From Archangium lipolyticum (GTDB lineage Bacteria > Myxococcota > Myxococcia > Myxococcales > Myxococcaceae), in contig NZ_JANKBZ010000020.1 of NCBI RefSeq assembly GCF_024623785.1, positions 124,001 through 188,000 of the forward strand: a stretch of DNA of 64,000 bases, given 5' to 3'. Position numbers and translations under genes: made by a program. The notes below the pieces were generated by a model that was not told the DNA's origin, did not search any database, and saw only the letters and a list, made by a program, of their open reading frames with translations. Below, piece after piece: positions 1 to 45,437 of this stretch. The stretch's first letter is position 1. Each line of letters opens with the position of its first letter.

Positions 1-3000
1 GCTGCCGGCGACCCTGGCCTTCAACTTCCCGAACCTCCAGTCGCTCACGGAGCACCTGTCGTCGCTGGTGGAAGCGGGGCTGCCCAAGACCAGCACGGCC
101 GAGCCCCGGAGGCGGAGGCAGTCGGACGAGCCGATCGCCATCGTGGGACTGGCCTGCCGGTTCCCCGGTGGCGCGGAAACGCCGGAGGCCTTCTGGGAGC
201 TGCTGCGCCAGGGGACGGACGCCACCGTGGAGGTCCCCGGGGACCGGTGGGACGCGGACGCCTGGTACGACGCGGACCCCGACGTGCCCGGGAAGATGTA
301 CGTGCGCCGCGGAGGCTTCCTGCGGGACGTGGCCGGCTTCGAGCCGCGTTTCTTCGGCATCTCCCCGCGCGAGGCGGAGAGCATGGATCCGCAGCAGCGG
401 CTGCTGCTGGAGGTGGCCTGGGAGGCGCTGGAGAACGCGGGGCAGGATCCGCACGCGCTGCGCAACTCGCGCACGGGCGTCTTCGTGGGCATCTCCGCGT
501 CCGAGTATTCGCGGCTGATGCTCGGAGGAGACCCGACGGAGCTGGACGCGTACCTGTCCTCGGGCACGGCGCTGAACGTGGCGGCCGGACGGCTGTCCTA
601 CACGCTGGGCCTGCAGGGGCCGAGCATGGCGGTGGACACGGCGTGCTCGTCGGCGCTGGTGTCGTTGCACCTGGCCTGCCAGAGCCTGCGCAGCGGCGAG
701 TCCAGCATGGCGCTGGCGGCGGGAGTGAACCTGGTCTTCTCGCCGGAGGTGACGCTGTCGGCCTGCAAGGCGCGGATGCTGGCGGCGGACGGCCGGTGCA
801 AGACGTTCGACGCGTCGGCCAACGGCTTCGCGCGCGGCGAGGGCTGTGGCGTGCTGGTGCTCGAGCGGCTGTCGGAGGCGCGGGCGAAGGGACACACGGT
901 GCTGGCCCTCATCCGGGGCTCGGCGGTGAACCAGGACGGGCCGAGCAGCGGGCTCACGGTGCCGAACGGACTGGCGCAGCAGGCGGTCATCCAACAGGCG
1001 CTGCGGGCGGCGGGAGTGTCGCCCCCGGAGGTGAGCTACCTGGAGGCGCACGGGACGGGCACGTCGCTGGGAGACCCCATCGAGGCGGAGGCGATGTGGT
1101 CCGTGTTCAAGCAGGGGCGCAAGGGCGGCGAGTCGCTGTGGATGGGCTCGGTGAAGACGAACATCGGCCACCTGGAATCCGCGGCGGGGATCGCCGGGGT
1201 GGCGAAGGTGGTGCTGGCGATGCGGCACCGGCAGCTGCCGGCGCACCTGCACATGAAGACGCCCAACCCGCACATCGACTGGAAGGGGATGGGGGTGACG
1301 GTGCCGGTGGAGCTGACGGCCTGGGAGCCGACGCAGGGCCGGCGGATCGCCGGAGTGAGCTCGTTCGGCTTCAGCGGGACGAACGCGCACGTGGTGCTGG
1401 AGGAGGCACCGCCGATGCCGGAGCGGAAGCAGGAGGTGGAGAGGCCGGAGCACGTGCTGGTGCTGTCGGCGCGGAGCCCGGAGGCGCTGCGAGCGCTGTC
1501 GGGCAGCTACGCGCGGCTCCTGGAGGAGGGCGGCGAGTCCCTGGGAGACGTGTGCTTCACGGCGGCGGTGGGGCGTGCGCCGCTGGAGCACCGGCTGGCG
1601 GTGGTGGGAGGGAGCGGAGCGCTGCTGCGCGAGCGGCTGGAGGCGGTGGCGGCGGGGCGAGAGGTGGAGGGCGTCATCCGGGGGAGCCCGGCGGGCGCGG
1701 CGCCGAAGGTGGCGTTCGTGTTCGGCGGGGAGCTCTGGGCGGGACTGGGGCGGGAGCTGGACGAGACGCAGCCCGTCTTCCGCGAGGCGCTGGGTAGGTG
1801 CGAGGAGGCGCTGAAGGAGGTGCTGGAGAAGCCGCTGCGGCAGGTGCTGTACGGGCCCGGGCTCGCGCTGTTGAAGGAGCGGGCGTACGCGAGGGCGGCG
1901 GTCTTCGCGCTGGAGTGGTCGCTGGCCCAGCTGTGGAAGGCGTGGGGCGTGAAGCCGGAGGAGGTGGTGGGGCTGGGGGTGGGCGAGCACGTGGCGGCGG
2001 TGGAGCGGGGCGCCGTCGGCCTGGAGGAGGGCTTGCGGCTGGCGGTGGGCGGGCGAGGCGCGGTGGGTGGGCAATGGGACGTGCTGGCGAAGGAGCTGCG
2101 GGCGCGCGGGGTGGAGGTGGCCCTGGTGGTGGGCTCCCATCCAGAGGGGCGGGGCATGGCGGGCGGACTGGCCTCGGTGCGTCCTGGCCGGGGCGAGTGG
2201 ACGCAGCTGCTGGAGACCCTGGGAACGCTGTACGTGCGGGGAGTGGTGGTGGACTGGGCGTCCTACGACGCACCTTATGATCGTCGCCGGGTGCGGCTGC
2301 CCACCTATCCCTTCCAGCGCCAGCGCTACTGGTGGAGGGGCGCGGCCTCGCGCACGGTGGCGTCCACGCCCCGGGGCGAGGAGAACGTCCGGCCGCACCT
2401 CGGCCGCCGGTTGCGCTCGCCAGCGCTCGACGCGCTCGTCTACGAGGCGACCTATTCGGCGTCGCGGCCAGCGCACCTCGAGGACCATCGCCTCTTCGGC
2501 ACCGTCGTCGTGGCGGGATCCTCGCACGTGTCACTGGCGCTCTCCGCCGTGGAGGAGGCCCACGGCTCACCGGCGTGCACGCTGGAGAACCTGACCTTCT
2601 CCCAGGCGCTGGTGCTCGCGGACGGCGAGGAGCGCACGCTTCAGGTCATCCTCACGCCTCGTGAGAAGGGGAGCGCGTTCGAGGTGAAGTCGCTGGGCCA
2701 CCGCGACGGCTCCGAGTCCTGGGTCCTGCACGCCACGGGCGAGCTGCGCCCGGGGAAGGCCGTGGAGCCCGAGCCCTGGGCCTCGCGAGCGGAGCTCCAC
2801 GCCCGCTGCATGGAGCGGCGCTCGGGAGCGGACTTCTACCGCGTCATGCTCGAGCGGGGTTACACGCTGGGGCCCGGCTACCAGTGGATCCACCTGCTGG
2901 GGCGCCAGGGCAACGAGATCCTCGGGGAGATGAGGCCGCCCCCGCTGAAGGACAGACTGGAGGACTACCCGCTCCACCCGGGGCTCATCGACTCGTGCAT

Positions 3001-5215
3001 CCAGGTGCTCGCGGGTTGGGCGCTGGACCGCTCGCGTGGCGCGAACACGCTGTTCATCCCGTTCAGCATCTCGCGGTTCAGCATGTACCGCCGACCGAGG
3101 GGCACGGTGTGGGTCCATGCCCGGGTGGAAGAGGGCGCGCGGGCCTCGTCCGATGAGTTCCTCGGGGGAGATCTGCGGATCCTCGACGAGCTGGGCGTGG
3201 TGGCGGAGCTCTCCGGCTTCCGCGGGCGGCTGACGAGCCGGGACAACCTGCGCACCGCCATGGAGCCGAAGCAGGAGGCGGCGCGCTACGCGATCCACTG
3301 GCGGCCCGAGTCCACGCCCCGGCCCGCCTCGGCACCGGAGTTGGACGGCGGGCCGTGGGTGCTGCTGATGGATGGACAGGGCGTGGGCGAGCGGCTCGCA
3401 CGCATGCTGGAGGAGCACGGCGCGCCCGTGATCCGCGTCCGTCCGGGCGCCGCGTTCCAGGCACTCGGGCCCGGGGTGTTCGAGCTCGATGCGCGCCGCC
3501 CCCAGGACTTCGCGCGCCTGTTGAACGAGGCCCTCGGGCAGGACGGCTGCGCGGGCGTGGTGTACCTGTGGGGCCTGGACCAGCCGGCCTTGGAGGACAC
3601 CTCCGCCGAGGCGATGCAGCGCGCCGCGCTGACGGCGAGCGGTGGTGCGCTGCACCTCGTGCAGGCACTGGCGAGCCGGAGAGGCGCTCCGGCCCCGCTG
3701 TGGCTCGTCACCCGAGGGGCGCAGGCGGTGAAGGAGACGCGCCCGACGCTGGCGCTCGCCCAGGCTCCGCTGTGGGGCTTCGGCCGGGTGTTGGACGTGG
3801 AGCGCCCGGAGCTGCGCTGCACCCGCGTGGACCTGGATCCGGAGGATGCCGAGAGCAGTCTCCGGCTCCTCGTCGCCGAGCTGGGACGCGGAGGAGACGC
3901 TCCCGAGCGGGAGGTGGCCTTCCGTGGAGGCGTGCGCCTGCACCCGGTGCTGAGGCCGGAGACGGGCACTCGCGACGGAGCCCCCACGCTCCGGCCGGAT
4001 GCCACGTACCTCCTCACGGGAGGACTCGGAGGGCTGGGCCTGGAGTTGGCGAAGTGGATGGTGGAACAGGGCGCGCGTCACCTGGTGCTGGTGGGACGCC
4101 GGGCCCCCTCCGCCGCGGCCTCCGAGGTGGTGCGTGGGCTCGAGCGGGTGGGCGCCCGGATCGCCATCGCCTCCGTGGACGTCTCGCGGGATGAGGAGGT
4201 GGCGCGGCTGCTCCAACGGCTCGACGCGGCCTCGCCACCGCTGCGAGGCATCATCCACGCGGCGGGTGTGCTCGATGACGGGGCGCTCCCGCAGCTGGAC
4301 CTGGAGCGCTTCGAGCGGGTGATGGCGCCGAAGGTGGCGGGGGCGTGGAACCTGCACCGGCGCACCCAGGGCCGGCCGCTGGACTTCTTCGTCCTCTTCT
4401 CCTCGGCGTCGGCGACGCTCGGCTCGGCGGGCCAGGGCAACTACGCGGCGGCGAACGCCTTCCTGGACGCGCTCGCGCACGAGCGGCGCGCACGTGGGCA
4501 GGTGTGCCAGTCGCTCGACTGGGGACCGTGGGCCGAGGTGGGCATGGTGGGGGCGGCGGACGGGCACGTGGCGCGAGTGCTCGAGCACCGGGGCATCCGG
4601 CCGCTGCCGACGCGGCGGGCGCTCGAGCTGTTCTCCGAGGCGCTCGCGAGTGGCGGGCCCCAGGTGGCGCTGCTGTCCATCCAGTGGCCGGTGTACCTGG
4701 AGGGACTCGGGGCCGTGGGGCGCTCGTCCTTCTACGAGGCGCTGGCACCGGCCCGGAGCGCGGCGCCGCGGACGAGCGCGCAGCCGGCGTCCTCCCAGTA
4801 CCCGCTCATGGAGAAGCTCCGGGCGGCACCGCCGCGGGAGCGCGAGCGCCTGCTGGCTCGAATCCTTCAGGAGGACGTGGCGCGCATCCTCCATCTCTCC
4901 GTCCAGGAGGTCGACTGGCGGCAGGGGTTCGCGGAGCTCGGCATGGATTCGCTGATGGCCATCGAGCTGCGCAATGTGTTGCAGAAGGGGTTCGGTGCGT
5001 CCATCCCCGCGACGGTGGCGTTGGATCACCCGACCATCGACTTCCTGGTGAAACACCTGCTGGGAGAGGTGCTGAAGCTCGACATGGGAGAGGCTCCGAA
5101 GCCGATACCCGTTCCCGTACGCGAGCCCGAGGATGGGCTCGTGAAGGATCTCGACGCACTGTCCGACGCCGATCTGGCGCGGCTGGTGGCCGAGGATCTC
5201 GCCAAGGATTCGTGA
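1..5215 (+). CDS. Modular type I polyketide synthase, 5' end outside window (ACP end, then KS-AT*-DH-KR-ACP)
   Basis: The frame is open from base 2 and starts in the C-terminal helices of an upstream ACP (LPATLAFNFPNLQSL), so the gene begins before the window. One full module follows. The KS (about 128-1400) has the active-site Cys in VDTACSSA (Cys codon 644) and both histidines (EAHGTGT, KTNIGH). The AT-like region (about 1704-2290) is degenerate: GHSxG reads GLGVGE (1970-1987), with Ser replaced by Gly, and the core that should carry the HAFHS-type motif is missing. The DH (about 2400-3235) keeps the catalytic His in DHRLFG and Asp in LIDSCIQ. The KR (about 4008-4560) has TGGLGGLG, an LDD motif (B-type) and the Ser/Tyr pair. 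The ACP has GMDSLMAIEL (Ser codon 4949). An acidic C-terminal tail looks like a docking segment for the next protein. The module would add and reduce one extender unit, but only if an acyltransferase acts in trans. That is inference. Confidence 0.95.
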   Translation, partial: LPATLAFNFPNLQSLTEHLSSLVEAGLPKTSTAEPRRRRQSDEPIAIVGLACRFPGGAETPEAFWELLRQGTDATVEVPGDRWDADAWYDADPDVPGKMYVRRGGFLRDVAGFEPRFFGISPREAESMDPQQRLLLEVAWEALENAGQDPHALRNSRTGVFVGISASEYSRLMLGGDPTELDAYLSSGTALNVAAGRLSYTLGLQGPSMAVDTACSSALVSLHLACQSLRSGESSMALAAGVNLVFSPEVTLSACKARMLAADGRCKTFDASANGFARGEGCGVLVLERLSEARAKGHTVLALIRGSAVNQDGPSSGLTVPNGLAQQAVIQQALRAAGVSPPEVSYLEAHGTGTSLGDPIEAEAMWSVFKQGRKGGESLWMGSVKTNIGHLESAAGIAGVAKVVLAMRHRQLPAHLHMKTPNPHIDWKGMGVTVPVELTAWEPTQGRRIAGVSSFGFSGTNAHVVLEEAPPMPERKQEVERPEHVLVLSARSPEALRALSGSYARLLEEGGESLGDVCFTAAVGRAPLEHRLAVVGGSGALLRERLEAVAAGREVEGVIRGSPAGAAPKVAFVFGGELWAGLGRELDETQPVFREALGRCEEALKEVLEKPLRQVLYGPGLALLKERAYARAAVFALEWSLAQLWKAWGVKPEEVVGLGVGEHVAAVERGAVGLEEGLRLAVGGRGAVGGQWDVLAKELRARGVEVALVVGSHPEGRGMAGGLASVRPGRGEWTQLLETLGTLYVRGVVVDWASYDAPYDRRRVRLPTYPFQRQRYWWRGAASRTVASTPRGEENVRPHLGRRLRSPALDALVYEATYSASRPAHLEDHRLFGTVVVAGSSHVSLALSAVEEAHGSPACTLENLTFSQALVLADGEERTLQVILTPREKGSAFEVKSLGHRDGSESWVLHATGELRPGKAVEPEPWASRAELHARCMERRSGADFYRVMLERGYTLGPGYQWIHLLGRQGNEILGEMRPPPLKDRLEDYPLHPGLIDSCIQVLAGWALDRSRGANTLFIPFSISRFSMYRRPRGTVWVHARVEEGARASSDEFLGGDLRILDELGVVAELSGFRGRLTSRDNLRTAMEPKQEAARYAIHWRPESTPRPASAPELDGGPWVLLMDGQGVGERLARMLEEHGAPVIRVRPGAAFQALGPGVFELDARRPQDFARLLNEALGQDGCAGVVYLWGLDQPALEDTSAEAMQRAALTASGGALHLVQALASRRGAPAPLWLVTRGAQAVKETRPTLALAQAPLWGFGRVLDVERPELRCTRVDLDPEDAESSLRLLVAELGRGGDAPEREVAFRGGVRLHPVLRPETGTRDGAPTLRPDATYLLTGGLGGLGLELAKWMVEQGARHLVLVGRRAPSAAASEVVRGLERVGARIAIASVDVSRDEEVARLLQRLDAASPPLRGIIHAAGVLDDGALPQLDLERFERVMAPKVAGAWNLHRRTQGRPLDFFVLFSSASATLGSAGQGNYAAANAFLDALAHERRARGQVCQSLDWGPWAEVGMVGAADGHVARVLEHRGIRPLPTRRALELFSEALASGGPQVALLSIQWPVYLEGLGAVGRSSFYEALAPARSAAPRTSAQPASSQYPLMEKLRAAPPRERERLLARILQEDVARILHLSVQEVDWRQGFAELGMDSLMAIELRNVLQKGFGASIPATVALDHPTIDFLVKHLLGEVLKLDMGEAPKPIPVPVREPEDGLVKDLDALSDADLARLVAEDLAKDS

Positions 5216-5223
5216 GGCCAGAG

Positions 5224-7578
5224 ATGTCCGAGGAGCCCAATTACCGCCAGCTGTTGCAGCAGCAGTTGGTGAAGATTCGCAAGCTGGAGGCCCGGCTGGA
5301 GCAGGCCGAGGCCGCCCGCCGCGAGCCGATCGCGATCATCGGCATGGGGTGCAGGCTTCCGGGGGGCGTGGAGAGCCCGGAGGCCTTCTGGGACATGCTG
5401 TCGAGGGGAGTCGATGCCACCGGTGAGCTCCCACCGGACCGCTGGGACGCCGCGGCCCTGTACGATCCGGATCCCCGCGCGAAGGGGAAGATCCGCTCGA
5501 CGCGGGGCGGCTTCCTGAAGAACGTGGACCGGTTCGACGCGCGGTTCTTCGGCATTCCGCCGCGGGAGGCGGAGAGCATGGATCCGCAGCAGCGGCTGGT
5601 GTTGGAGGTGGCCTGGGAGGCGCTGGAGCGGGCCGGGCACGCGGTGGAGCGTGGCGGTCGCGAGCGGGTGGGCGTCTTCGTCGGGGTGATGAACAACGAC
5701 TACGGGCAGCGCGTGCTGGACGCGGGAGGCCTGGAGGGCATCGACGCCGGCTTCCTGGGGGCGCGAGCCAACTGCGCCATCTCCGGACGTCTGTCCTATC
5801 TGTTTGGCTTCCAGGGGCCGAGCCTGGTGGTGGACACGGCGTGCTCGTCCTCACTCGTGGCGGTGCATCTGGCCTGCCAGAGCTTGAGGAACGGAGAGTG
5901 CGCGATGGCGCTGGCGGGGGGCGTGAACCTCGTCCTCTCGCCGGAGGTGAGTGTCTATCTCTCCCAGAGCGGGGTGCTCTCTCCGGACGGGAGATGCAAG
6001 GCCTTCGATGCCTCCGCGGATGGCTATGGCCGCGCGGAGGCCTGTGGCGTGCTGGTGCTCAAACGCTTGTCGGAGGCGCAGGCCCAGGGAGACACCATCC
6101 TGGCGGTCATCCGGGGCTCGGCGGTGGGGCACGATGGCCCGAGCAGCGCGTTCACGGTGCCCAATGGCGTGGCGCAGCAGGAGGTCATCCGTCAGGCATT
6201 GCGGAACGCGGGAGTGCCACCGGCGGAGGTGAGCTACCTGGAGGCGCACGGCACGGGGACGGCGATGGGAGACCCCATCGAGGCGGAGGCGATGTGGGCG
6301 GTGTTGAGGGAGGGGCGCAAGGGCGGAGAGTCGCTGTGGATGGGCTCGGTGAAGACGAACCTCGGCTACCCGGAGGCGGCTTCGGGCGTGGTGGGGATGA
6401 TGAAGGTGGTGCTGGCGATGCAGCACCGGGAGCTGCCGGCGCACCTGCACCTGAAGAATCCCAATCCCTATATCGACTGGGCGGAGATGGGGGTGAAGGT
6501 GCCGGTGGAGCCGACGCCGTGGGAGCCGACGCAGGATCGGCGCATCGCGGGGGTGACCTCGTACGGGCGGACTGGCACCCTGGCGCACGTGGTGCTGGGG
6601 GAGGCGCCGGCGCGGTTGGAGGTGAAGCGGGAGGTGGAGAGGCCGGAGCACCTCCTGGTGCTGTCGGCGCGGAGCCCGGAGGCGCTGCGTGCGCAGGCGG
6701 GCCGTTACGCGCGCTTCCTGGAGGGCAGCGGGGTGGAGCTGGGAGACGTGTGCTTCACGGCCGCGGCCGGGCGGGCGCACTTCGAGCACCGGCTGGCGGT
6801 GGTGGGAAGCGACGCACGGGCGATGCGCGAGCGGCTCCTCGAGGTGGAGGCGGGTCGGGAATTGGAGGGCTCGCGGCCGGGCCGCGCGGGAAGCATCGCG
6901 CCGAACGTGGCCTTCATCTTCGGTGGGGAAGGCGGGCGGTACGCGGAGATGGGCCGGGTGCTGTACGAGACACAGCCCGTCTTCCGTGACGCGCTGGAGG
7001 AGTGCGGAGCGGCGCTGAAGGGCGTGTTGGAGACGCCCCTGATCTGGGTGCTGTGCGGCCCCGAGTCCGAGCGGGTGAAGGAGGAGGCGTACGGGAGGGC
7101 GGCGGTCTTCGCGCTGGAGTGGGGCCTGTCGCGGATGTGGCGGGCGTGGGGCGTGGTGCCGCGGGCGGTGGTGGGGCGGGGCGTGGGGCAGCTGGTCGCG
7201 GCGGTGGATGGGGGCGTCTTCGGCCTGGAGGAGGGGCTGAGGCTGGCGGCCGGCGGGCCGTCCCAGACGGAAGCCTACACGGCGCCCCAGCTGCTCTCGT
7301 TGAACGAGGAGACGGAGCAGGCCCTGCGCGAGCACGGCGTGGACGTGTGTCTGGAATTGGGACCCCGGCCGGAGGGAAGGCCCGAGGCCGGTTGGCTGAC
7401 CTCACTCCAGCGGGGCCGCTCGGAGTGGGCCCAGCTCCTGGAGACGCTGGGGATGCTGTATGTGAAGGGGGTGAAGGTGGACTGGGAGGCCTATGACGCG
7501 CCCTACCACCGGCGCCGGGTTCCCCTGCCCACCTATCCCTTCGAGCGCCAGCGTCATTGGCTCACTTCGGCTCGATGA
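5224..7578 (+). CDS. Truncated type I polyketide synthase (docking segment-KS*-AT*), no ACP or release domain
   Basis: The ATG lies 8 bp after the preceding PKS stop, so the two are co-transcribed. The first 30 residues form a charged helix (QLLQQQLVKIRKLEARLEQ), typical of an N-terminal PKS docking coiled coil, and then the KS starts. The KS keeps the nucleophile (VDTACSSS, Cys codon 5842) and EAHGTGT, but the catalytic KTNIGH His is Tyr (KTNLGY, codon 6367) and the usual GTNAHV reads GTLAHV (codon 6580). The AT is reduced like that of the upstream module and its GHSxG reads GRGVGQ (7174-7191). The protein ends right after the post-AT linker (LPTYPFERQRHW), 784 residues in all, where DH/KR/ACP would normally follow. 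The last codons overlap the 3' end of the opposing regulator gene. It is most likely a decaying remnant. A role as a non-elongating, protein-binding module cannot be excluded. Confidence 0.88.
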   Translation: MSEEPNYRQLLQQQLVKIRKLEARLEQAEAARREPIAIIGMGCRLPGGVESPEAFWDMLSRGVDATGELPPDRWDAAALYDPDPRAKGKIRSTRGGFLKNVDRFDARFFGIPPREAESMDPQQRLVLEVAWEALERAGHAVERGGRERVGVFVGVMNNDYGQRVLDAGGLEGIDAGFLGARANCAISGRLSYLFGFQGPSLVVDTACSSSLVAVHLACQSLRNGECAMALAGGVNLVLSPEVSVYLSQSGVLSPDGRCKAFDASADGYGRAEACGVLVLKRLSEAQAQGDTILAVIRGSAVGHDGPSSAFTVPNGVAQQEVIRQALRNAGVPPAEVSYLEAHGTGTAMGDPIEAEAMWAVLREGRKGGESLWMGSVKTNLGYPEAASGVVGMMKVVLAMQHRELPAHLHLKNPNPYIDWAEMGVKVPVEPTPWEPTQDRRIAGVTSYGRTGTLAHVVLGEAPARLEVKREVERPEHLLVLSARSPEALRAQAGRYARFLEGSGVELGDVCFTAAAGRAHFEHRLAVVGSDARAMRERLLEVEAGRELEGSRPGRAGSIAPNVAFIFGGEGGRYAEMGRVLYETQPVFRDALEECGAALKGVLETPLIWVLCGPESERVKEEAYGRAAVFALEWGLSRMWRAWGVVPRAVVGRGVGQLVAAVDGGVFGLEEGLRLAAGGPSQTEAYTAPQLLSLNEETEQALREHGVDVCLELGPRPEGRPEAGWLTSLQRGRSEWAQLLETLGMLYVKGVKVDWEAYDAPYHRRRVPLPTYPFERQRHWLTSAR

Positions 7579-8056
7579 GGGAGAGCGCGAGCTGGCGGAC
7601 CTGTTGGCCATTGAAGGGCTTGCGCAGCTCCGTCAGCAATTGAGACCTGCCGAACTCCCGGACGAGCTCCCCCCAGGAGTAGTCGGAGTAGGCCGAGCAG
7701 AGCACCACGCGCAGCGAGGGAGACACCAGGCGCAGGCGCCTGAGTGTCTCGGCGCCGTTCCAACCCGGCGGCATCCGGTAGTCGAGGAAGATGAGCGAAT
7801 AGGGACGGCCGGTGATGAGCGACTCGTTGACCTTGCTCACTCCCTCCTGGCCCTGGAAGGCCGAGTCCATTTCGAACTCCGAGTCGCCGGAGTGTGTCTC
7901 CTGGGCGGAATTCGAGCCGAAGAGGGCCTCTTCCAGCATGTCCAGATCGTCCCTGCTCTTGCGCGTCTCCGGGCAGAGGATGCGGCGGAAGTCGGTGTGG
8001 ATGGCCTCGGAGTCATCGATGACGAGGATTCGCTTCTTGCTTGCGCAGTTGCTCAT
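7562..8056 (-). CDS. Single-domain response regulator with a long insertion (paralogue of the gene at 10436-10939)
   Basis: This is a 164-residue receiver protein without an output domain. RILVIDDSEAIH supplies the acidic pair (D14, D15), SLIFLDYRMPPG the phospho-acceptor (D92), CSAYSD the Ser/Thr position (S121) and ELRKPF the conserved Lys (K146). The first acidic pair and the acceptor are about 77 residues apart, against about 44 in a standard CheY-like receiver. The extra 30-odd residues lie between strand 1 and strand 3. I chose the ATG at 8056 because its ATGA overlaps the stop of the sensor kinase gene, implying translational coupling and a cognate pair. It presumably signals through protein contact. 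The C-terminus (EPK) departs from its paralogue (EPRNPG) exactly where the gene meets the truncated PKS. Confidence 0.88.
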   Translation of the reverse strand: MSNCASKKRILVIDDSEAIHTDFRRILCPETRKSRDDLDMLEEALFGSNSAQETHSGDSEFEMDSAFQGQEGVSKVNESLITGRPYSLIFLDYRMPPGWNGAETLRRLRLVSPSLRVVLCSAYSDYSWGELVREFGRSQLLTELRKPFNGQQVRQLALSLIEPK

Positions 8057-10245
8057 GGGGTCTCCGGAGCGGGAACGAAGGGCATGTCCAGGGTGAAGGT
8101 GGCGCCGCATCCTGGCCCCTCGCTGTGGACGTCCAGCGTGCCGCCCAGCTCCTGGGCCGCGAGGGCACTGGAGTGCAGGCCGAAGCCATGTCCATCCGGG
8201 CGGGTGGTGAAGCCGTATTTGAAGATGCGCGTGAGCATCTCGGGTGCGATGCCCATTCCGTTGTCACGGACTTCGATGCGGACGTGCTCGTCCCGGGTGT
8301 GTTCCAGCTTCACGCTCAGGAGCCGCTCGTCCCTCGGTACGCCATCCATGGCGTATTTGGCATTGCTGACCAGGTTGACGAGGATCATCAGGATCTTGTG
8401 TTTGTCGGCCAGCATGGGAGGCATCTGCGAGATGTGGCGCTGCACCTTCACCTGGTGGCGGGTGAGTCCGGCCGAGTTGATGCGGATGGCGTCTTCCAGC
8501 AGGTCGGCGAGGACGACCGGCTCATGGACCCGGGGAATCCTGGCGTAGTTCTGTTGGACCTTGACGATGTCGCCGATGTGCTCGGTGTAGCGGCCCACGT
8601 CGTCGAGCAGGGTGATGACCTCGTTGCGCTCGTCCTGGAGGCTCTGGCTCAACCGGGACAGGAAGGGCATGACATGCCGGCCGCGCTCGTCCTGGGTGAG
8701 GAAGGTGGCGATGTTGGACTGGTTCTGCTCGAGCATGTTCGCCACCCGGCCCACGTGCTCCAGCCGCATCTCGCTCACCCGCTCCTTGGCGACCTGGGAC
8801 GAGGTGTAGACGCTGTTGAGCACGTTGCCCACGTTGTGCAGCACGTTGGTGGCGATCTCCGCCATGCCGGCGCGGCGGGCCGTCTGCACCAACTGCTGGT
8901 GGATGTGCTTGAGCTCCCGGGTGCGCTCATCGACGCGCTGCTCCAGGCCCTCGTTGGCCTGGCGCAGGGCCTCCTCGCGATGTTGGACCTTGTCCGCCAT
9001 GAGCTGGAAGGAGCGGGCCAGCTGCCCCAGCTCGTCACAGCGATGGGTGTCCAGCTCCACCTTGAAGTCACCGGCCGCCACCTTGTCGGTGGCCTCGCTC
9101 AAGGACAGCAGCGGGCGGGAGATCTGCTGCTGGAGGACCCAGTACATGATGGCCAGCTCCACCAGCAGCGACAGGATGCCGAGCAGCAGGACATAGCGCG
9201 TCGCCTGGAAGGCGGGCTGGGACACCACGCTCTCGGGGAGCACCGTGGTGAAGTACCAGCCGGTCCCCTGCATGCGGGCCGTGGCGATGTACTCATCGGA
9301 CTCCGGGAGCTCCAGCACGTCCTGGCCATCGGCACGCTCCTTCATCCGCTCGAAGACGCGGCGCAGGTGCTCCTGGCTCGCCGCGGACCCGGACGGAGGG
9401 GCCGCGCCTTCCGTCTGTCCGGGGTAGGCGATGAGCTGTCCGTCCTCGCGGAAGATGACGTTGTAGGCGCCGGGGAGGTGGTCCGCGATGGTACGGCCCA
9501 GCAGGTCCGCGAGGGGAACGTCGTGGCTGAGCGACGCGACATGGCGGCCGTCCATGTCCAACGGCCTGGTGACCGAGGTCAGCGACTGGCCGCTCACCGA
9601 GTCCACGTAGACGCCGGACCAGGCCGTCAGCCTCTTCGGATTGTTCTCCGGCAGGCTGATGGGGAAGTAGTCCTGGGTGATGACCGAGTCGGTGGGTCTG
9701 GCGTCCTGGCACCAGGTGGAGCGCTCGGGCCAGTAGAGCGCGATGGGACCCTCGGGCAGCGTGATGTAGGTGTCCGTGAAGCGCACATGGAAGGCGGGTC
9801 CATACTGGGCGAGCACGTCGTGCGAGGCGACGAGCCGGCGGCGCAGGTCCTGATCGACGGTCACTCCCGAGGGGACGAAGACGCACACATTCTTCTTGCC
9901 GTCGAAGCCCTCGGGACGGCTGCGCACCGTGCCATCGGGAAGGTTCGCGAACAGGAGCTCGAAGCGGGTGTTCACTTCCTCCGGGGTGAGGGCGCGGATC
10001 CTCTCCTCGAGGGCCTTCTCGAGGATGGCCAGGTTGTCCTGGGCGAGCACGAAGATGCCCTGCTCGCGCTGCGCACGCTCTGACACATGCTGCTCCAGCT
10101 GCGCGAGGGCCTCGGTGCGCAGGGTGCCGAACATGTGGAGGTAGCTGAACAGGGTGGTCAGTGCGATGACCACCGCGATGCGTACGCCCATGTGGATGAG
10201 CGTGGAGCGGGCAAGGGGCGCACGAGGGCGGGAGGTTGGCTGCAT
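8053..10245 (-). CDS. Membrane sensor histidine kinase (periplasmic sensor, HAMP, ATPase)
   Basis: The 730-residue protein has an N-terminal membrane segment (about 20-42), a large predicted periplasmic sensor region (about 43-345) resembling double-Cache sensors, a second membrane segment (about 350-372), a HAMP linker (ISRPLLSLSEATDKVAAGDF) and a coiled coil. Its dimerisation/phosphorylation helix is atypical, with the candidate His in VLHNVGNVLNSV (about residue 470). The C-terminal ATPase shows the N box (LVNLVSNAKYAMDG), G1 (DNGMGIAP) and G2 (HGFGLHSSA). It overlaps the downstream regulator by 4 bp and is preceded by a paralogous regulator, so one kinase may serve both. The signal is unknown. 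Confidence 0.9.
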   Translation of the reverse strand: MQPTSRPRAPLARSTLIHMGVRIAVVIALTTLFSYLHMFGTLRTEALAQLEQHVSERAQREQGIFVLAQDNLAILEKALEERIRALTPEEVNTRFELLFANLPDGTVRSRPEGFDGKKNVCVFVPSGVTVDQDLRRRLVASHDVLAQYGPAFHVRFTDTYITLPEGPIALYWPERSTWCQDARPTDSVITQDYFPISLPENNPKRLTAWSGVYVDSVSGQSLTSVTRPLDMDGRHVASLSHDVPLADLLGRTIADHLPGAYNVIFREDGQLIAYPGQTEGAAPPSGSAASQEHLRRVFERMKERADGQDVLELPESDEYIATARMQGTGWYFTTVLPESVVSQPAFQATRYVLLLGILSLLVELAIMYWVLQQQISRPLLSLSEATDKVAAGDFKVELDTHRCDELGQLARSFQLMADKVQHREEALRQANEGLEQRVDERTRELKHIHQQLVQTARRAGMAEIATNVLHNVGNVLNSVYTSSQVAKERVSEMRLEHVGRVANMLEQNQSNIATFLTQDERGRHVMPFLSRLSQSLQDERNEVITLLDDVGRYTEHIGDIVKVQQNYARIPRVHEPVVLADLLEDAIRINSAGLTRHQVKVQRHISQMPPMLADKHKILMILVNLVSNAKYAMDGVPRDERLLSVKLEHTRDEHVRIEVRDNGMGIAPEMLTRIFKYGFTTRPDGHGFGLHSSALAAQELGGTLDVHSEGPGCGATFTLDMPFVPAPETP

Positions 10246-17390: not shown

Positions 17391-20300
17391 TCACCTGGGG
17401 GCCCGTGAAACGGAGCTGGGGATCGAGGCTTCGAGCCCGGGATTCTCGTGCTCGGGGGGCCCAGAGCAAGGGAGCTCCACGGTAAAGGTAGCGCCCTCGC
17501 CGGGTTTGCTCTCCACCCTGACGGAGCCACCCAGGGCGGTCACGATCTCGTGAACGATGTAGAGGCCGAGACCGAGTCCTCCATAGTTCACGGAGGAGAC
17601 GGCGCGTTCGAAGCGGCCGAAGATATGAGGCATGCGGTCGGGAGCGATGCCGATGCCCTGGTCCTTGACGACGAGGCGGGCGGTGCCGCCCTCGCGAGAG
17701 AGGGAGAATTCGATGGGGCGGCCGGGGGCGAACTTGATGGCATTGGACAGCAGATTCCCGACCACCTGCTCCAGCCGGGAGCGGTCCCAGCGGCCCGTCA
17801 CTGCCTCCTGGACGTGGAGTGTCAGCGGACACTCGGCGCGGGTCAGGGACTGGCCATGGCGCTCGATGACCTCGCGAAGCACGGAGGAGAGATCCATCCA
17901 TTCGAGCTGGAGGTGGAGGCGGCCGGCGTGGATGCGAGAGACCTCGAGCAGTTCCTTGATCAACCCGGCGAGCTTGCGGGTTTGCTGTTCGGCGGTGCGG
18001 AGGGCGCGCTGGGCGGTTTGAGGCAGCTCGGAGTCGGCGCGCCGCATGAGCCCCTGGACGGAGAGGCGGAGGGAGGTGATGGGGGTGTTGAGCTCGTGCG
18101 AGGCGACGGACAGGAAGTCATCGCGCAGGTGGATGGCTTCCTGGGCTTCCCGGTACAGCCAGGCATTGTCGATGCAGACGGCGGCGCGGCGGGCCATCTC
18201 CTGGGCCAGGTCGAGCTCGGCCTCGGAGTAGCGGCGCCTGGCGGCGGACGACACGAAGAGGATGCTTCCGAGCGTCTTTCCGCGAGCGACGAGCGGGACG
18301 ACCATGCCGGTGCGGAAGGAGATGGTCCGAAGGATGTCGAAGTACCGCTCATCCCGGCTGAGGTTGGCCTTGCGCACGACCTGCTCGTCGAGGTTGGCGA
18401 GGAGCACGGGCTGGCCGGTGCGCAGGGTGCGGGCGATCGGCTCCGGGGAGTCCCACGTGGGAGGATAGTTCTCCGAGAGCTCGCGCAGGAGTTGCTCCTT
18501 GGCGGGCTCCTTATGGGCCAGCGCCACCCGGCGGATCCTGCTGTCCTTCTCGACCACGTCGACGACGCACCAGTCGGCCAGGTAGGGGACCACCGAGCGG
18601 GTCACCTTGGCCAGCGTCGTCTCGAAGTCGAGGGACTCGGACAGGGTGAGGCTCCACTCGGCCAGGGAGCGCACGGCCTGCTCCGCGCGCCTGCGCTCTT
18701 CCACCTCGATGCGCAGCTGTTCGAAGAGGAGGCTGTTCTCCAGGGAGATGGCGATCTGTGAGGAGAGCAGCCGCAGGACGCGGACGCGCTCGGGGGTGAA
18801 GGCGCGGGTGGCCAGGTTGTTCTCGAGGTAGAGGACACCCACTGTCCTGCCGGTCCGTTGGATGGGAATGGCGAGGGCGGACTTCACGGCGTGCTGGACG
18901 ACGTAGGGGTCGGAGGAGAAGCGTCCTTGCCGGGCGGCATCCGCCAGGACGAGGGTCTCTCCCGACCGGTAGGCGTGTTCGATGACGGTGCCAGGCACCT
19001 GGCCCGATTCCTCCAGGGTGGAGTGCAACAGCGAGACGGGCTCGGAGACGGTGCCCACCGCGCGCAAGCAGAGGGAGTCCTTCTCCTCGAGCACGAGCGC
19101 GCCACGCTGGGCTCCCGCCGCCTCGAGACAGACGCCCATGAGCTTCTCGAGGAGGCGCTCCAGGACGACCTCGCTGACGAGCGTCTCGGCGGACTTGAGG
19201 AGGGTGAGCAGATCGAGGGTGGAGCCCGCCGGCCCGGGACGCTCCGAGGTGGGGGCCGGGGGGTCCCAGTGAGTGGGCTCGATTGGCGTCAGGTCGGAGA
19301 ACTCCTCCTCGAGATCCGACACCTTGGCCTGGGCGCCCCAACGGGCATGGCCCTCGAGGGCGGAGCGCAGATAGCCGTGGGCGAGGCGCTTGCCACCGAC
19401 GGAGAGGTAGTAGCGGCCCGCGAGCTCGTTGGCGAGTGCCTCCTCGTGGATGAACTGCTCGCGATGGGCGCCCTCGATGGCCTGGTCGTAGAGCCGCAGG
19501 GCCTCGAGGTGTCTTCCCTCGATGCGGGCGAGCTCGGCGCTGACGAGCAGGTGTTTGTGGCGGTAGTTCTCCGGGCAGTTCTCCGCCCAGATGGCGAGCT
19601 GGCGCTGGTTGGCCGCGAGCTCCTCCAGGAGGTGGGCCTTCTCCCCGGGCGAAGCCTTGTCGTAGCGGGCCGTCAGGCTCAGCGAGGTGTAGAAGTTGTG
19701 TTCAGTGAGGAGGTGCCACCCTTGCAGGAACAGGAGGAATCCCTGGCCCCGCCGCGACATCTCCCGGGCGTCCTCGATGTCGCCCAGGAGGTAGGACACC
19801 TGGAGGCGCTGGATCCAGTACATGCCCAGGACGGTGGGCACCTCCCGGTTCTTGGCGAGGAACGCTTCCTCGTCGAACGTGTCATCCTCGAAGCGGGCGT
19901 GCTCGCGAGTCCGATCCTGCAGGCAGCGGATGGCCTGACGGAGGCTGATGAGGGATTGAATGCGCCAGAGCAGGCCCGCCTTCCGGACGTAGGCCAGGTC
20001 GGTCTCGATCTCCGCGAGCACCTGGGAGAGCCCGGTGCCCATCGCGAACAAGGTGTTCACCGTGGCGGGGAACGTGTAGCTGGCCAGGTGGAGATCGCCG
20101 CTCGCATGCGCGGAGGTGAAGGCCTGACGGAGGATGGGCATGCTGGTGCGTAGGGGCGCCCGCCAATGATTCACACCCAGCCCGAACGTGACCAGCGCCC
20201 TGCTCCTCTGCCGGAGATCCGTGTACCGTCGGCACAGCTCCACGCCCAGGCACCCGAAGGCATGGCCGGTGGCGTAGTCACCCAGCCGTGAGGCCAGGAT

Positions 20301-23093
20301 CCCTCCGTACACGGCATACGACGTGGGCGCATGGCGTGTATTGCCATGCTTCAACGACAGGTTGACGACACGGGTGTTGATGAAGGCGAACAGTTGGGGA
20401 TCGATGTACATGGTCGCCAGGCCCGTCTCCGTCAGGAGCCGCATGCAGGCCAGATGATCCGGGTCCTCCGCCGTGGGTTCCTCGAGGATCTCCTCCATGG
20501 AGCGGCCCCTCGTGTTCTCCTTCACCCTGGCGAACTCGGCCTGGAGCGCCTGGGGGGCGTCCTGCTTTTCTGGCAGCTCCACGCCGAACAACCGCAATCC
20601 CTCTCGTCCCCACTGAAGCGCATCCGGGAAGGCCTGTCTCATCATGCCGGCGAGGATCCGGAGGATGTAGAGATCCGCCTTCTCGAAGCGCGACGAGGCA
20701 TGGACCAGTGCGGAGGAGATGATTCCCTCGGCGGACTCCAGGGCGCTCGCGAGGTACGCACACTCCGCCGCCTCCTTGTGGAGCCGGAAGGTCTGCTCGT
20801 AGCTCGTCCGCCACGCATCCCCGGGGAGGAGCTCGATGCCGCGGGTGAGGTAGCCGAGCGCGGAGCGGAAGGCCGCCGAGGCCTTGGCCTTGGCTCCCGC
20901 CTGGAAGTTGAGCCGGACCAGGTCCAGCCGTTCCGTTTCACTCGTCACCAGGTCCGCGCCCAGGTCGAGCTGATCCACCATGTCGAAGAGCCGCTCGTCC
21001 TGCTCGCGTTCGAGGGCGGCCCGCATCTGGCGTCCCGCCTCGAGGTGGAAGCGCTTCTTCTCGTCCTCGGACAGGAGCGAATACGCGGCCTGCTGGACGC
21101 GGTCGTGGGCGAAGCGGTAGGTGGTGTTCTGGGGGATGAGGAGCCCTTCCTGGATGGCGCTCCTGAGCGCGCCGGCCGTGTCGCCCACGGGCCTGTGCAC
21201 CAGCGCGGCGAGCAGGGGGAGGTCCACCTGGTGCCCCAGACAGGCCGCCACCTTCAGCAGGCGCTGGGTCCGCTCGGGAAGCCGGCGGATGGTCGCGAGC
21301 ATCAGCTCGACCACGTTCTCGGTCACGTCCACCTGGGCGATCCGCGAGAGCGTCCAGTCCCAGGTGCCGCGCTGGACGTCGAAGCTCAACAGGCCGGCGT
21401 GGTGGAGGTACTTGAGGAAACGGGTGACGAAGAGGGGGTTGCCCGCCGTCTTGTGCAGCACGAGCTCCGCCAGGGGCCGGACGTCCGCGGCCTCGCGGCG
21501 CAGGGTGTCGCCGCAGAGTGCCGTGATCGCCTCGAGGTCCAGGGGGCGCACCTCGATGACGTGGATGTCGAGCTTCTTCTGCCGGATGGCCTCGAGGGCC
21601 CGGGTGACCGGGTGCTCCGGTCCGACCTCCTCGGCCCGGCAGGAGCTCGACCACAACACGTGGTTCGAGTCCGGATCCGAGGCGAGGTGCTGCAAGAGCT
21701 TGACCGAGGCGGGATCGGCCCACTGGAGGTCATCCAGGAACAGCAGGAGGGGCCGTTCCGGGGTGGCGAGTGCCTGGATGAATGCCTGGAAGGTCAGGAG
21801 GAAGACGCGCTCGGCCTCCGTGGGCCTGAGGTCGGGCACGGGAGGCTGCGGACCGAGGAACTGCTCCAATCCGGGGACGAGCCCGAGGATGACGCGGCCG
21901 TTGGTTCCCAGGGCCTTCGAGAGCCGGCTCCGCCACGTCTCCTGGACGTCGGCCGGTTCCCTGGACAACCCGTCCAGCAACCCCTGGAAGGCCGCCACCA
22001 GCGGGGCGTAGGGCACGTTGCCCTGGAGCTGGTCGAACTTGCCGGAGAGGAACCAGCCTCCACGCCCGAGGCGTTGGCCCAACTCCTGGACGAGGGCCGA
22101 CTTGCCGATGCCCGCCGGGCCCGTGAGCATCACCCGCTCACTCGGGCCCGTCCGGACGCGCTTCAGGGCGTCCTCGAGCAGGGTCAGCTCGCGCTCGCGC
22201 CCGTAGAGCCGCTCCGGAATGGGGAGCTGCCGGGCGGAGTCGAGCCGGCCGAGCTCGAAGGTCTCGAGTCCGCTGGAGGTCCGCTTGCGCCTCCGCGCCT
22301 CCTGGAGATCGGCCAGGAGGGAGTCAGTGCTCTGGTAGCGCTCCTCGGGCATCTTGGCGAGCAGCTTGAGCACGAGCGCCGAGAGGATCTCCGGGATGCG
22401 GGGGTTGGCGTGAACGGGCGGCAGGGGAGGCCGGGCGAGGTGGGCGTGGACGAGCTCGATCGGGTCGGAGGACAGGAACGGAGGCTGGCCCGTGAGCAGC
22501 TCGTAGAAGGTCGCGCCCAATGAATAGAGGTCGGCACGGTGATCGACGAGGCGATCCATGCGCCCCGTCTGCTCGGGCGCGATGTAGGGCAGCGCCAGCT
22601 CGAGCTCGCCGAGGATGTTCGCGGGAGGGGTGGGTCCAGCGGCCCGGATGGCGAGGTCGAAGTCGATCACCGTCAGGTGGATGGACCCCGGCCTCACGAT
22701 GATGTTGGTCGGGTTGATGTCCCGGTGGATGACGTCGTGCCGGTGGATGTGTCCGAGGATCTCCGTCAGCTGGATGGCCAGCTCCAGGAAGGTGTCGGGC
22801 TCGAACGGATGGTGTTTCGACCAGTCCCGGAGGTCTCGAGGGCCAGCGTCCTCGAGGACGAGCGCTGGCATTCCGGCTGTGTCCTCGAGGGAGAGGGCCC
22901 TCACCACGCCCGGCGTCCCCAACCTCTCGAGCTCCCGAAGCAGCTCGAGCTCGTGGTGGAGCATCGCCGTGCTGCTGGGGGCGAGGGGGCCATGGCGGGC
23001 CCGTTTGAGGACCAGGGATTCAGCGTCCCCCTTCCAGAGGCGGGACACGCTGTACCGGCGTCCTCGGTGGATCTCCTGCGACAACCCCATCAT
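17391..23093 (-). CDS. Giant hybrid sensor: Ser/Thr kinase, AAA ATPase, TPR-like region, two GAF domains, histidine kinase
   Basis: The 1900-residue protein has a Ser/Thr kinase domain (1-270) with Lys30 in LVLKRA, HRDINPTN (123-130) and DFD in place of DFG (144-146). Next is an ATPase with Walker A GPAGIGKS (Lys331) and Walker B LLLFLDDLQW, then a long TPR-like helical region (about 700-1250) and two GAF-like domains (about 1315-1650). A histidine kinase core follows, with His1666 in VASHELNTP, N box NLLSNAIKF, G1 DQGIGIAP and G2 GLGLGLYI. No membrane segment is seen, so it is probably a cytoplasmic integrator with both kinase chemistries. The second methionine (23090) is an equally possible start. 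No regulator is adjacent. A paralogue lies at 45438-51056. Confidence 0.93.
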   Translation of the reverse strand: MMGLSQEIHRGRRYSVSRLWKGDAESLVLKRARHGPLAPSSTAMLHHELELLRELERLGTPGVVRALSLEDTAGMPALVLEDAGPRDLRDWSKHHPFEPDTFLELAIQLTEILGHIHRHDVIHRDINPTNIIVRPGSIHLTVIDFDLAIRAAGPTPPANILGELELALPYIAPEQTGRMDRLVDHRADLYSLGATFYELLTGQPPFLSSDPIELVHAHLARPPLPPVHANPRIPEILSALVLKLLAKMPEERYQSTDSLLADLQEARRRKRTSSGLETFELGRLDSARQLPIPERLYGRERELTLLEDALKRVRTGPSERVMLTGPAGIGKSALVQELGQRLGRGGWFLSGKFDQLQGNVPYAPLVAAFQGLLDGLSREPADVQETWRSRLSKALGTNGRVILGLVPGLEQFLGPQPPVPDLRPTEAERVFLLTFQAFIQALATPERPLLLFLDDLQWADPASVKLLQHLASDPDSNHVLWSSSCRAEEVGPEHPVTRALEAIRQKKLDIHVIEVRPLDLEAITALCGDTLRREAADVRPLAELVLHKTAGNPLFVTRFLKYLHHAGLLSFDVQRGTWDWTLSRIAQVDVTENVVELMLATIRRLPERTQRLLKVAACLGHQVDLPLLAALVHRPVGDTAGALRSAIQEGLLIPQNTTYRFAHDRVQQAAYSLLSEDEKKRFHLEAGRQMRAALEREQDERLFDMVDQLDLGADLVTSETERLDLVRLNFQAGAKAKASAAFRSALGYLTRGIELLPGDAWRTSYEQTFRLHKEAAECAYLASALESAEGIISSALVHASSRFEKADLYILRILAGMMRQAFPDALQWGREGLRLFGVELPEKQDAPQALQAEFARVKENTRGRSMEEILEEPTAEDPDHLACMRLLTETGLATMYIDPQLFAFINTRVVNLSLKHGNTRHAPTSYAVYGGILASRLGDYATGHAFGCLGVELCRRYTDLRQRSRALVTFGLGVNHWRAPLRTSMPILRQAFTSAHASGDLHLASYTFPATVNTLFAMGTGLSQVLAEIETDLAYVRKAGLLWRIQSLISLRQAIRCLQDRTREHARFEDDTFDEEAFLAKNREVPTVLGMYWIQRLQVSYLLGDIEDAREMSRRGQGFLLFLQGWHLLTEHNFYTSLSLTARYDKASPGEKAHLLEELAANQRQLAIWAENCPENYRHKHLLVSAELARIEGRHLEALRLYDQAIEGAHREQFIHEEALANELAGRYYLSVGGKRLAHGYLRSALEGHARWGAQAKVSDLEEEFSDLTPIEPTHWDPPAPTSERPGPAGSTLDLLTLLKSAETLVSEVVLERLLEKLMGVCLEAAGAQRGALVLEEKDSLCLRAVGTVSEPVSLLHSTLEESGQVPGTVIEHAYRSGETLVLADAARQGRFSSDPYVVQHAVKSALAIPIQRTGRTVGVLYLENNLATRAFTPERVRVLRLLSSQIAISLENSLLFEQLRIEVEERRRAEQAVRSLAEWSLTLSESLDFETTLAKVTRSVVPYLADWCVVDVVEKDSRIRRVALAHKEPAKEQLLRELSENYPPTWDSPEPIARTLRTGQPVLLANLDEQVVRKANLSRDERYFDILRTISFRTGMVVPLVARGKTLGSILFVSSAARRRYSEAELDLAQEMARRAAVCIDNAWLYREAQEAIHLRDDFLSVASHELNTPITSLRLSVQGLMRRADSELPQTAQRALRTAEQQTRKLAGLIKELLEVSRIHAGRLHLQLEWMDLSSVLREVIERHGQSLTRAECPLTLHVQEAVTGRWDRSRLEQVVGNLLSNAIKFAPGRPIEFSLSREGGTARLVVKDQGIGIAPDRMPHIFGRFERAVSSVNYGGLGLGLYIVHEIVTALGGSVRVESKPGEGATFTVELPCSGPPEHENPGLEASIPSSVSRAPR

Positions 23094-26183: not shown

Positions 26184-29100
26184 ATGTCGCTACTTCCGAG
26201 CCCCCGGATGCTCGCCGCCCTCCTGGCGGCCGCCATCCTCGTCCTCTCCGTTCCAGCTGCCCGGGCCCAGCCTCCGTCCGTGCCCTCGTGGAAAGCCATC
26301 GACGCGCTGGTGGAGCAGCAGAAATTCGAGGCCGCCCTCCAGGGCGCCGAGGCCCGCCTGGCGCAGGCCCGCTCGCGGAGTGACGAGGACGAGTGGGTGC
26401 GGGCGCTCGTGCGCGTGGTGCAGCTGCGCACCGGGCTCCACGGGTACGAGACGGCGGTGCGCTTCCTCCGGGAGCAGCCCTGGCCCCAGGGGCTGCTGCC
26501 CCGCACCACGCTCGAGCTCTATTACGCGAGCGCGCTCATCACCTACGCCGAGCAGTACGGCTGGGAGGTGCGCCAGCGCGAGCAGGTGGTGTCCGGCGGG
26601 CCGGTGGATCTGAAGCGGTGGACGGCCGAGCAGATCTTCACCGAGGCCCGGCGCGCGCTCTCGGAGGCGTGGGCGGAGCGGGAGCGGCTGGGCGCGGAGA
26701 AGGTGGGGGCGCTCGCGGGCGTCCTCCAGCCGAACACCTACCCGCCGGGAATCCGGGACACGCTGCGTGACGCGGTGACGTACCTCTGGGTGGAGATGTT
26801 GGCGGACGAGAACCAGTGGCGTCCGGGGCAGACCGAGGAGCTGCACCGCCTGGACGTGGACGAGCTGCTGCGGGGCTCGCCCCGGGTGGACCTGGTGGGG
26901 CCGGCGGAGCACCCGCTGCGGAAGGTGGCCGCCGTGCTGGCGGACCTGGAGGCGTGGCACCTCGCCGCGGGCCGGCGCGAGGCGGCGCTGGAGGCGCACC
27001 TGGCACGTGGCCGGCTCCTCCACGACTCCTTCGCGGAGGAAGCGGACAAGGCCCGTGTCCGCGCTCACGTGGCCGAGCACCTGGAGGGCTACCGGAACGT
27101 GCCGTGGTGGGCCATGGGGCAGGGATGGCTGGTGGAGAGCGAGGAGTCCGCGGATCGGCCGGTGCGCGCGCACACGCTGGCGAAGGCGTGCGTGGCGGCC
27201 TATCCGAAGAGCATCGGGGGCCAGCGGTGTGCCCGGCTGGTGGCGAAGCTCGAGGCGCCGGAGTTCTCCGTGGCCAGCATGCGCGCGGATGGTGCCCGCA
27301 GGCGCTCCATCGAGGTGACGCACCGCAACCTGCCCCGGTTGCACTTCCGGGCCTATGTGCACGATCTGGAGTCGCGGCTCACCGGGGGCAACTTGTTCGA
27401 GGGGCTCCTGGATGAAGGGGAGGACTCCCTGCGCCGCCTCATCGCGCGCGAGCGGCCCGTGGCGTCCTGGAGCGAGTCGTTGCCGGAGACGCCGGACTTC
27501 CGGTCGCACCGCACCTTCGTGGTGCCGCCGCTGACGGAGCCGGGCAGCTACCTCATCGTCGCCTCGGCGCGCGAGGACTTCCAGGAGAAGGGCAACCAGG
27601 TGGTCGCGACCCTGATGACGGTGACTCCCTGGGTCTACATCACCCACAAGGATCGTCAGGGCCGGGTGGAGGTGCGGGTGATGGAGGGTGAGAGCGGCCA
27701 GCCCGCGCCGGGCGTGGAGGTGCGCCTCGTGCAGGCGGGTGATGGCAACCGGGTGGTGCGGACGCTGAAGACGGACGCCCGGGGCGAGGCCGTCCTCACC
27801 GGGCTGCCGGAGCAGAAGAGCTCCTTCGTCGTGCTGGGACGGGGCCGGCAGGTGCTGCTCGCCCTGGAGCCTTTCTACGGGTACAGGCGCCCGCGGGAGA
27901 GGGAGCGGATGGATGCGCTCGTCTTCACGGATCGCTCCGTGTACCGCCCGCTGCAGAAGGTGTCGTGGAAGGTGGTGGCCTTCAGGGGGAGCGGGGAGCA
28001 AGCGCGCTACCAGACGCTGCCGAGGCAGCGGTTGACGGTGTCGCTGGTGGACGCGAATGGCCAGGCCGTCGAGAAGCGCGAGGTGAAGACCAATGACTTC
28101 GGCTCGGCGGCGGGCGAGTTCACCCTGCCCACCGGGCGGCTGCTCGGCATGTGGCGCGTGGATGCCAGCGTGGGCGAGGACAACCTGGGCAACGCGGCGG
28201 TGCGTGTGGAGGAGTACAAGCGGCCCACCTTCGAGGTGACGCTGAAGGACCCGGACGCGGCGCTGCGCCTCAACCGTCCGGCCACCTTCCGCGGCGAGGC
28301 GCGCTACTACTTCGGGCTCCCGGTGACACGGGGCACCGTGCGCTGGAGCGTCCGGCGCGAGCCCCTCCTCCCCGTGTGGTGGCGGACGATGGGGGGGGCC
28401 CGGCCGTTCTCGTCCCGCGTCGTGGCCAGTGGCACCTCGGCGCTGGGGGAGGACGGGGGTTTCCAGCTCACCTTCACCCCGGAAGCGGATGAGCGGACCG
28501 CCGCCTCGCGCGACTTCTCCTGGCGCTACCGCGTGGAGGCGGACGTGACGGACGAGGGCGGGGAGACACGCTCGGCGAACCGTGCCTTCCGGCTCGGCCT
28601 GGTGGCGGTGGAAGGCCGCGTGGACGCGGACGAGGAGTTCTTCCGCGAGGGCGTGGCCTCCGAGGTGCGGTTGATGCGCTCCAACCTCGATGGAGCGCCG
28701 CTGCCCGGGGCGGGGCGGTGGCGGCTGGTGGCGCTGAAGCAGCCCTCGCGGCCGGTGCTGCCCGTCGAGCAGCCCCTCGTGACTCCGCCCGGGTTGTCCG
28801 TGGAGGCGGACGTCCGGGCCACCACACCGGGAGACGCACTGCGGCCCCGGTGGGGGGCGGAGGATGCTCCGGTGGAGGAGTCCTTGCGGAGCTGGGCCGA
28901 GGGCGAGGAGATGGCGCGGGGCTCGGTGGCGCACGACGCGCAGGGGCTCGCGCGGGTGAAGCTGCCCGCGGTGCCCGCTGGTGCCTACCGCGTGCACTAC
29001 GAGACGGAGGATGCCTTTGGCGAGCGCTTCACCACCTCGCGCGAGGTGCTGGTGGTGGGCGGAAGTGCCCCGATCGCGCTGCCGGCGCTGCTCCGGGTCG

Positions 29101-45229: not shown

Positions 45230-45437
45230 CGCTAGCGAGTTGAACTTTCGACCGGCAAGTGCAATCTTTGACCTGAAACGGTCCGAACTTCACCCAAAAG
45301 GGGCTCGGGAGCCATCCAGACGTTGCCCGCCCGGGGGCCGATGGGGGTCTCGATCCCTGGCTGCCCGAGTTTTCGGGGACCTACATATTCGAAGGCTGTT
45401 CTGCCTTGATGGGGGACCATTCATTGAGAGGGGTGGC

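Follow-up and report, generated by a model that had tools for sequence, protein, structure and literature searches.

The polyketide synthases (PKSs) that come closest to the locus analyzed here contain inactive or displaced acyltransferase (AT) domains. In module 12 of the irumamycin PKS, the AT is inactive, the module is used, and a neighboring AT has been proposed to serve the respective ACP (PMC11672594). For algal PKSs, displacement of ATs in trans has been proposed, and a terminal, altered ketosynthase (KS), denoted KS0, has been proposed to function in release or transfer (PMC4661987). Archangium and Melittangium are mentioned as having in common a conserved T1PKS cluster with an unknown product (PMC12766979), which may be the same locus as the one described below. 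A literature search, with most subscription journals outside its range, retrieved nothing direct on truncated ATs in myxobacteria and no description of vestigial ATs accompanied by a terminal KS-AT0 protein in this group, and the origin of AT-less modules from cis-AT lines has so far been argued mostly from finished trans-AT systems. The tandem-AT loading modules of myxobacterial cis-AT PKSs (stigmatellin/myxothiazol type), which make up another relevant group, are represented in the same genome by a separate large PKS (C28:48001-60000). Its ACP-KS-AT-AT loading module has Gln in place of the extender Arg in the first AT.

The present locus is a variant cis-AT PKS rather than a trans-AT PKS, and it is real, conserved and unusual. 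Trans-AT PKSs lack integrated ATs throughout and usually encode a discrete, extender-loading AT in the cluster; here, two of the five integrated ATs are intact, and the discrete ATs are limited to FabD and an unlinked protein of predicted starter type. The KS and AT domains group with those of cis-AT systems in trees of cis-AT PKSs from the same genome, with no trans-AT KSs included. A typical cis-AT line has an active AT in each extension module, whereas the AT of module 3 lacks the serine and the core and is absent altogether in the sister genus. As in irumamycin module 12, an inactive AT resides within an otherwise used module; the irumamycin case, however, involves a single module with a thioesterase (TE), whereas here three ATs are dead, one of them is wholly deleted in sister species, and there is no TE. 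The locus shares with the algal PKSs the loss of integrated ATs and the altered terminal KS, but in the algal systems nearly all modules are AT-less and the KS0 change affects the HGTGT motif, whereas this PKS is mostly cis-AT and has lost the other histidine.

The window, a stretch of 64,000 nucleotides (G000:C20:124001-188000) from a 12.6 Mb genome in 75 contigs, opens inside the second gene of a three-gene PKS cluster (A, B and C) that starts upstream, at C20:111757. As judged from open frames and Pfam matches, gene A (2590 aa) has the organization KS-AT0-AT-DH-ER-KR-ACP and gene B (3229 aa) KS-AT-KR-ACP-KS-AT0-DH-KR-ACP, where AT0 denotes a dead AT; gene C (784 aa) consists of a docking segment, a KS and an AT0, with neither an ACP nor a TE. 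A thioesterase domain was found in none of the three genes. The features are as follows.

2..5215, + strand: 3' portion of gene B, which starts upstream of the window at C20:119526, with the end of the module 2 ACP, module 3 (KS-AT0-DH-KR-ACP) and a C-terminal docking segment (open frame, Pfam)
128..1255, + strand: KS3, Cys-His-His intact, DTACSS 635-652, HGTGT 1049-1063, NIGHLE 1160-1177 (Pfam, motifs)
1715..2059, + strand: AT0 of module 3, the N-terminal third of an AT with GLGVGE at 1970-1987 and no core (Pfam 2-118/319; truncated or deleted in 10 genomes)
2297..2314, + strand: post-AT motif LPTYPF, retained even in genomes with the AT deletion (motif, cross-genome comparison)
2393..3250, + strand: module-3 DH, Ala for the motif proline (DHRLFGTVVVAG, 2483-2518) (Pfam, motif)
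4001..4537, + strand: module-3 KR (Pfam)
4865..5059, + strand: ACP3, serine motif GMDSL 4940-4954, without a cognate AT (Pfam, motif)
5224..7578, + strand: PKS gene C (open frame, Pfam, orthologues in 10 genomes)
5224..5319, + strand: coiled coil for docking at the N terminus of the gene C protein (dN/dS about 0)
5323..6453, + strand: KS4, Cys (5833-5850) and first His (6247-6261) retained (Pfam, motifs)
6367..6369, + strand: gene C codon 382, second catalytic His replaced by Tyr (in 10/10 orthologues; 38/38 of the other KSs compared have His)
6913..7251, + strand: AT0 of gene C, GRGVGQ at 7174-7191 and no core (Pfam 2-114/319)
C20:113440-114129, upstream of the window: first AT of gene A, an AT0 with GHGVGE and a missing core, ahead of an intact AT (profile gap)

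The sequence-only reading of the window had called attention to two consecutive modules with serine-less GHSxG motifs, and both motifs lie exactly where it placed them. The two are consecutive KS-AT units but belong to separate proteins, and gene C, a KS-AT0 with no ACP or TE, is not a full module. The catalytic core is absent from both ATs, as proposed: the matches to the 319-position Pfam Acyl_transf_1 profile cover only the first third of each domain, so that the small subdomain is absent, as is the His that serves as second catalytic residue. Frameshift decay had been discounted, in agreement with the open frames and the retained post-AT motif. The suggested look upstream for further modules revealed a third dead AT of the locus, the first of the two tandem ATs of gene A, with a profile gap between about 130 and 236; the second AT of gene A and the first AT of gene B are intact.

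Among 96 genomes of the family, the complete cluster was found in two genera. Genes A, B and C are syntenic and adjoin the same core genes in all six genomes of the window's genus, Archangium (g1), and in all four of the sister genus (g11, probably Cystobacter/Melittangium); at the threshold used, gene C orthologues were not detected in any of the other 86 family genomes. The ten genomes are mutually nearest by RpoB identity (97-99%, compared with 96% or less for the others) and thus form one clade. The fragmentary genome G008 (86% complete) contains pieces of genes A and B. A scan of genome contigs revealed relatives of gene C in Archangium lansinium and A. violaceum Cb vi76, the remaining matches being generic KSs, and a plasmid search with gene C yielded only generic KS matches, under 60%.

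The module-3 AT differs among these genomes. The window genome and G003 have lost the core but keep a C-terminal piece; in G001, G002, G004 and G005, the deletion is bigger; in the four g11 genomes, only the KS linker and a TYPFxRQRYW motif remain where the domain would lie, and the deletion ends differently in G015; and G008 shows a separate deletion, unlike the others. The KS, KR and ACP motifs that flank the lost domain are intact. Because related species carry the same AT in states that range from truncated through more heavily truncated to wholly deleted, in a module under selection, the order of loss becomes readable. The presence of AT deletions in both genera indicates that the ATs were lost before the split of the genera and that the rest of the PKS has been maintained since, so that a recent cis-to-trans conversion, as envisaged in the sequence-only reading, is not supported.

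The ratios of nonsynonymous to synonymous substitutions (Nei-Gojobori, close pairs) are 0.11-0.27 for KS3, 0.10-0.25 for KS4 and 0.08-0.20 for the intact AT of module 2 (AT2); the docking segment of gene C has a ratio of about 0. The low values for the KS domains bear out the idea of a PKS of cis-AT ancestry that lost ATs while the remainder stayed under selection. For the module-3 AT0, the ratio is 0.18-0.81, and for the gene A AT0, 0.13-0.31. The AT0 domains of genes A and C are retained in all ten genomes and accordingly may have a structural role. Intact upstream ATs combined with neutral drift of the two modules had been named in the sequence-only reading as a refutation of its proposal; two of the upstream ATs are indeed intact, but the modules are not drifting, and only the AT remnants are relaxed. 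Nor does the suggestion that the locus no longer makes product fit an architecture common to ten genomes, with intact and constrained KS1-3, KR and ACP motifs.

The relationships of gene A point to its origin. The KS of gene A (KS1) is the sister of the KS of the C28 loading module (support 99/92), and the second AT of gene A (AT1) pairs with the second of the two ATs there (96/89), so that gene A looks like a former tandem-AT loading module. In contrast to the C28 module, however, gene A lacks an N-terminal ACP for the starter, which counts against starter loading in trans; its first AT is dead, and a loading-type AT is encoded separately and unlinked. The first AT of gene A is a putative former loading AT, its sequence not distinguishing between the loading and the extender type.

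Of the 24 AT matches detected in the genome, only FabD, encoded in a fab operon at C34, and a 351 aa protein encoded at C3 (G000:C3:347655-348707), unlinked to the cluster, stand alone. Given this second protein, FabD was rejected as the sole discrete AT. In the AT tree, this C3 AT is the sister of the first (loading) AT of the C28 tandem-AT module (100/100), so that both the KS1/AT1 pair of gene A and the discrete AT have their closest relatives within a tandem-AT module. The catalytic Ser and His of the C3 AT are intact. The alignment shows Gln in every discrete C3-type AT and in the loading AT of C28 at a position where each of the other ATs has Arg, the residue that binds the carboxylate of malonyl-type extenders; in the lack of this residue, the C3 AT resembles starter-loading ATs specific for monocarboxylic units. 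It also has a VAAH motif in place of HAFH; acyl-CoA-selective loading ATs with GAAH replacing HAFH have been described (PMC12843615).

Stand-alone orthologues of the C3 AT occur in precisely the ten genomes that carry gene C, with none in the rest of the 96, and are under purifying selection (dN/dS 0.15-0.32); no match was found in G008, a genome only 86% complete. Given that the ten genomes form one clade, this co-distribution may reflect common descent alone. The lack of linkage between the C3 AT gene and the cluster likewise counts against its role as a supplier. A discrete AT, as had been surmised from the window, thus exists in the genome and is stand-alone only in cluster-bearing genomes, but its signature is that of a starter-unit AT, not of one that loads extenders. 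The possibility that it assists a C28-like cluster is disfavored by G002, G005, G061 and G062, where the AT matches above the threshold number just two, one of them the discrete AT, so that the C3 AT does not appear to be tied to such a cluster.

Gene C has a distinct origin and an altered active site, the latter overlooked in the sequence-only reading, where the lack of one catalytic histidine in its KS was missed. KS4 is the sister of KS3 in the KS tree (100/99), and by these sequence relationships gene C arose through duplication of the module-3 KS-AT0, an event older than the split of the genera. In all ten gene C orthologues, the active-site Cys is retained, as is the HGTGT His, but Tyr replaces the second catalytic His, which is conserved in each of the 38 other KSs compared, many of which are orthologues of one another. 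In addition, the whole clade departs from other KSs at twelve of their invariant or nearly invariant positions, several of them near the active site. With the condensation His lost and the Cys retained, KS4 has the sequence hallmarks of a KS0. From KS chemistry, decarboxylative condensation would be expected to suffer once one His is gone, and with no ACP an extended chain cannot be held; together, these features imply that gene C should not elongate. A transacylase-like role in release, hand-over or gating appears plausible, making gene C a candidate way of ending a polyketide chain without a thioesterase. An AlphaFold model of gene C (mean pLDDT 57, shallow alignment) was set aside.

Taking these observations together, we give an even chance to the following reading: the locus encodes a functional, three-protein PKS derived from a cis-AT line, with three of five ATs lost, an unlinked starter AT, an ACP3 loaded by a neighbor, and gene C at the end of the line. 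It builds on the observed architecture, conservation, lesions and selection, and on the ancestry of KS4 and the discrete AT; we infer the pairing of ATs with ACPs, the trans loading of the starter and what gene C does. The C3 AT would load the starter in trans, most likely replacing the dead first AT of gene A; its starter-type signature makes this likelier than replacement of the module-3 or gene C ATs. Module 1 would then add a unit picked by AT1, with a VASH motif that is presumably methylmalonyl-like, and module 2 would add malonyl (HAFH). Module 3 would extend, with ACP3 charged most likely by AT2 of the same polypeptide, or else by FabD. Gene C would dock on gene B, might take the finished chain on its Cys, and most likely would serve release, hand-over or gating at the line end. 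The predicted outcome is a delta-hydroxy alpha,beta-unsaturated tetraketide, subject to the activity of the module-3 DH, which is in doubt because the DH has Ala at the motif proline in all genomes where the motif was found; this domain may be inactive or altered. More tentatively, and with the balance of probability against it, we consider that this could be a cis-AT line part-way through AT loss, in which the loading AT moved to an unlinked trans gene and an ACP-less Cys-His-Tyr KS became a release or transfer enzyme.

Several other readings compete with this scheme. Conversion of the line for extension, in which the C3 AT would load malonyl-type extenders on ACP3 and the locus would be an intermediate towards a trans-AT PKS, draws on the intact catalytic Ser and His of that enzyme and on its stand-alone occurrence in exactly those genomes with an AT-less module 3, but we regard it as decidedly doubtful: the extender Arg is Gln in all orthologues aligned, as only in the C28 loading AT, the motif is VAAH rather than HAFH, and the nearest relative is a loading AT. 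It is unlikely, too, that module 3 does not extend and simply passes the chain on, with gene C a remnant or scaffold and the product resulting from two extensions; the missing cognate AT of ACP3 and the DH substitution would fit, but KS3 keeps Cys-His-His, the ACP3 Ser and KR motifs are retained, and the module is under purifying selection.

A purely structural role for gene C as cap or gate, in which it transfers no acyl group, its docking segment and KS4 dimer stabilize gene B, and hydrolytic release takes place elsewhere, would agree with the nearly invariant docking segment, the retention of its AT0 in all ten genomes and the absence of a TE from the cluster. The active-site Cys and first His, present in 10/10 orthologues, would be needless in a pure scaffold, which makes this reading improbable as well. 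The least probable by far, to the point of being nearly negligible, is a recent pseudogene or an assembly collapse of repetitive PKS DNA. The latter had been raised as a possible source of the missing segments, and the 75 contigs of the window genome and the 62% likeness between the KS3 and KS4 units gave reason to consider it; however, the same genes occur in the same order in single-contig assemblies (G002, G003, G004 and G063), and the deletion ends differ by clade. Recent decay is ruled out by the architecture shared among ten genomes and the low dN/dS with no stops.

Some neighbors of the cluster deserve mention. Genes for an SCP2-like protein and a CoA-transferase III precede gene A (C20:109838-111452) in all ten genomes; the CoA-transferase was rejected as a cluster enzyme because it is not specific, being present in 89 of the 96 family genomes, and the PKS thus adjoins core genes. 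On the other side, response regulator and histidine kinase genes (window 7562-10245, - strand) are convergent with gene C and conserved at this position in Archangium; in G015, no match to these genes adjoins the cluster. Further very long open frames, each of 1900-2046 aa, lie in the window at 17391-23093 (- strand), 26184-32240 (+ strand) and 44916-51056 (+ strand).
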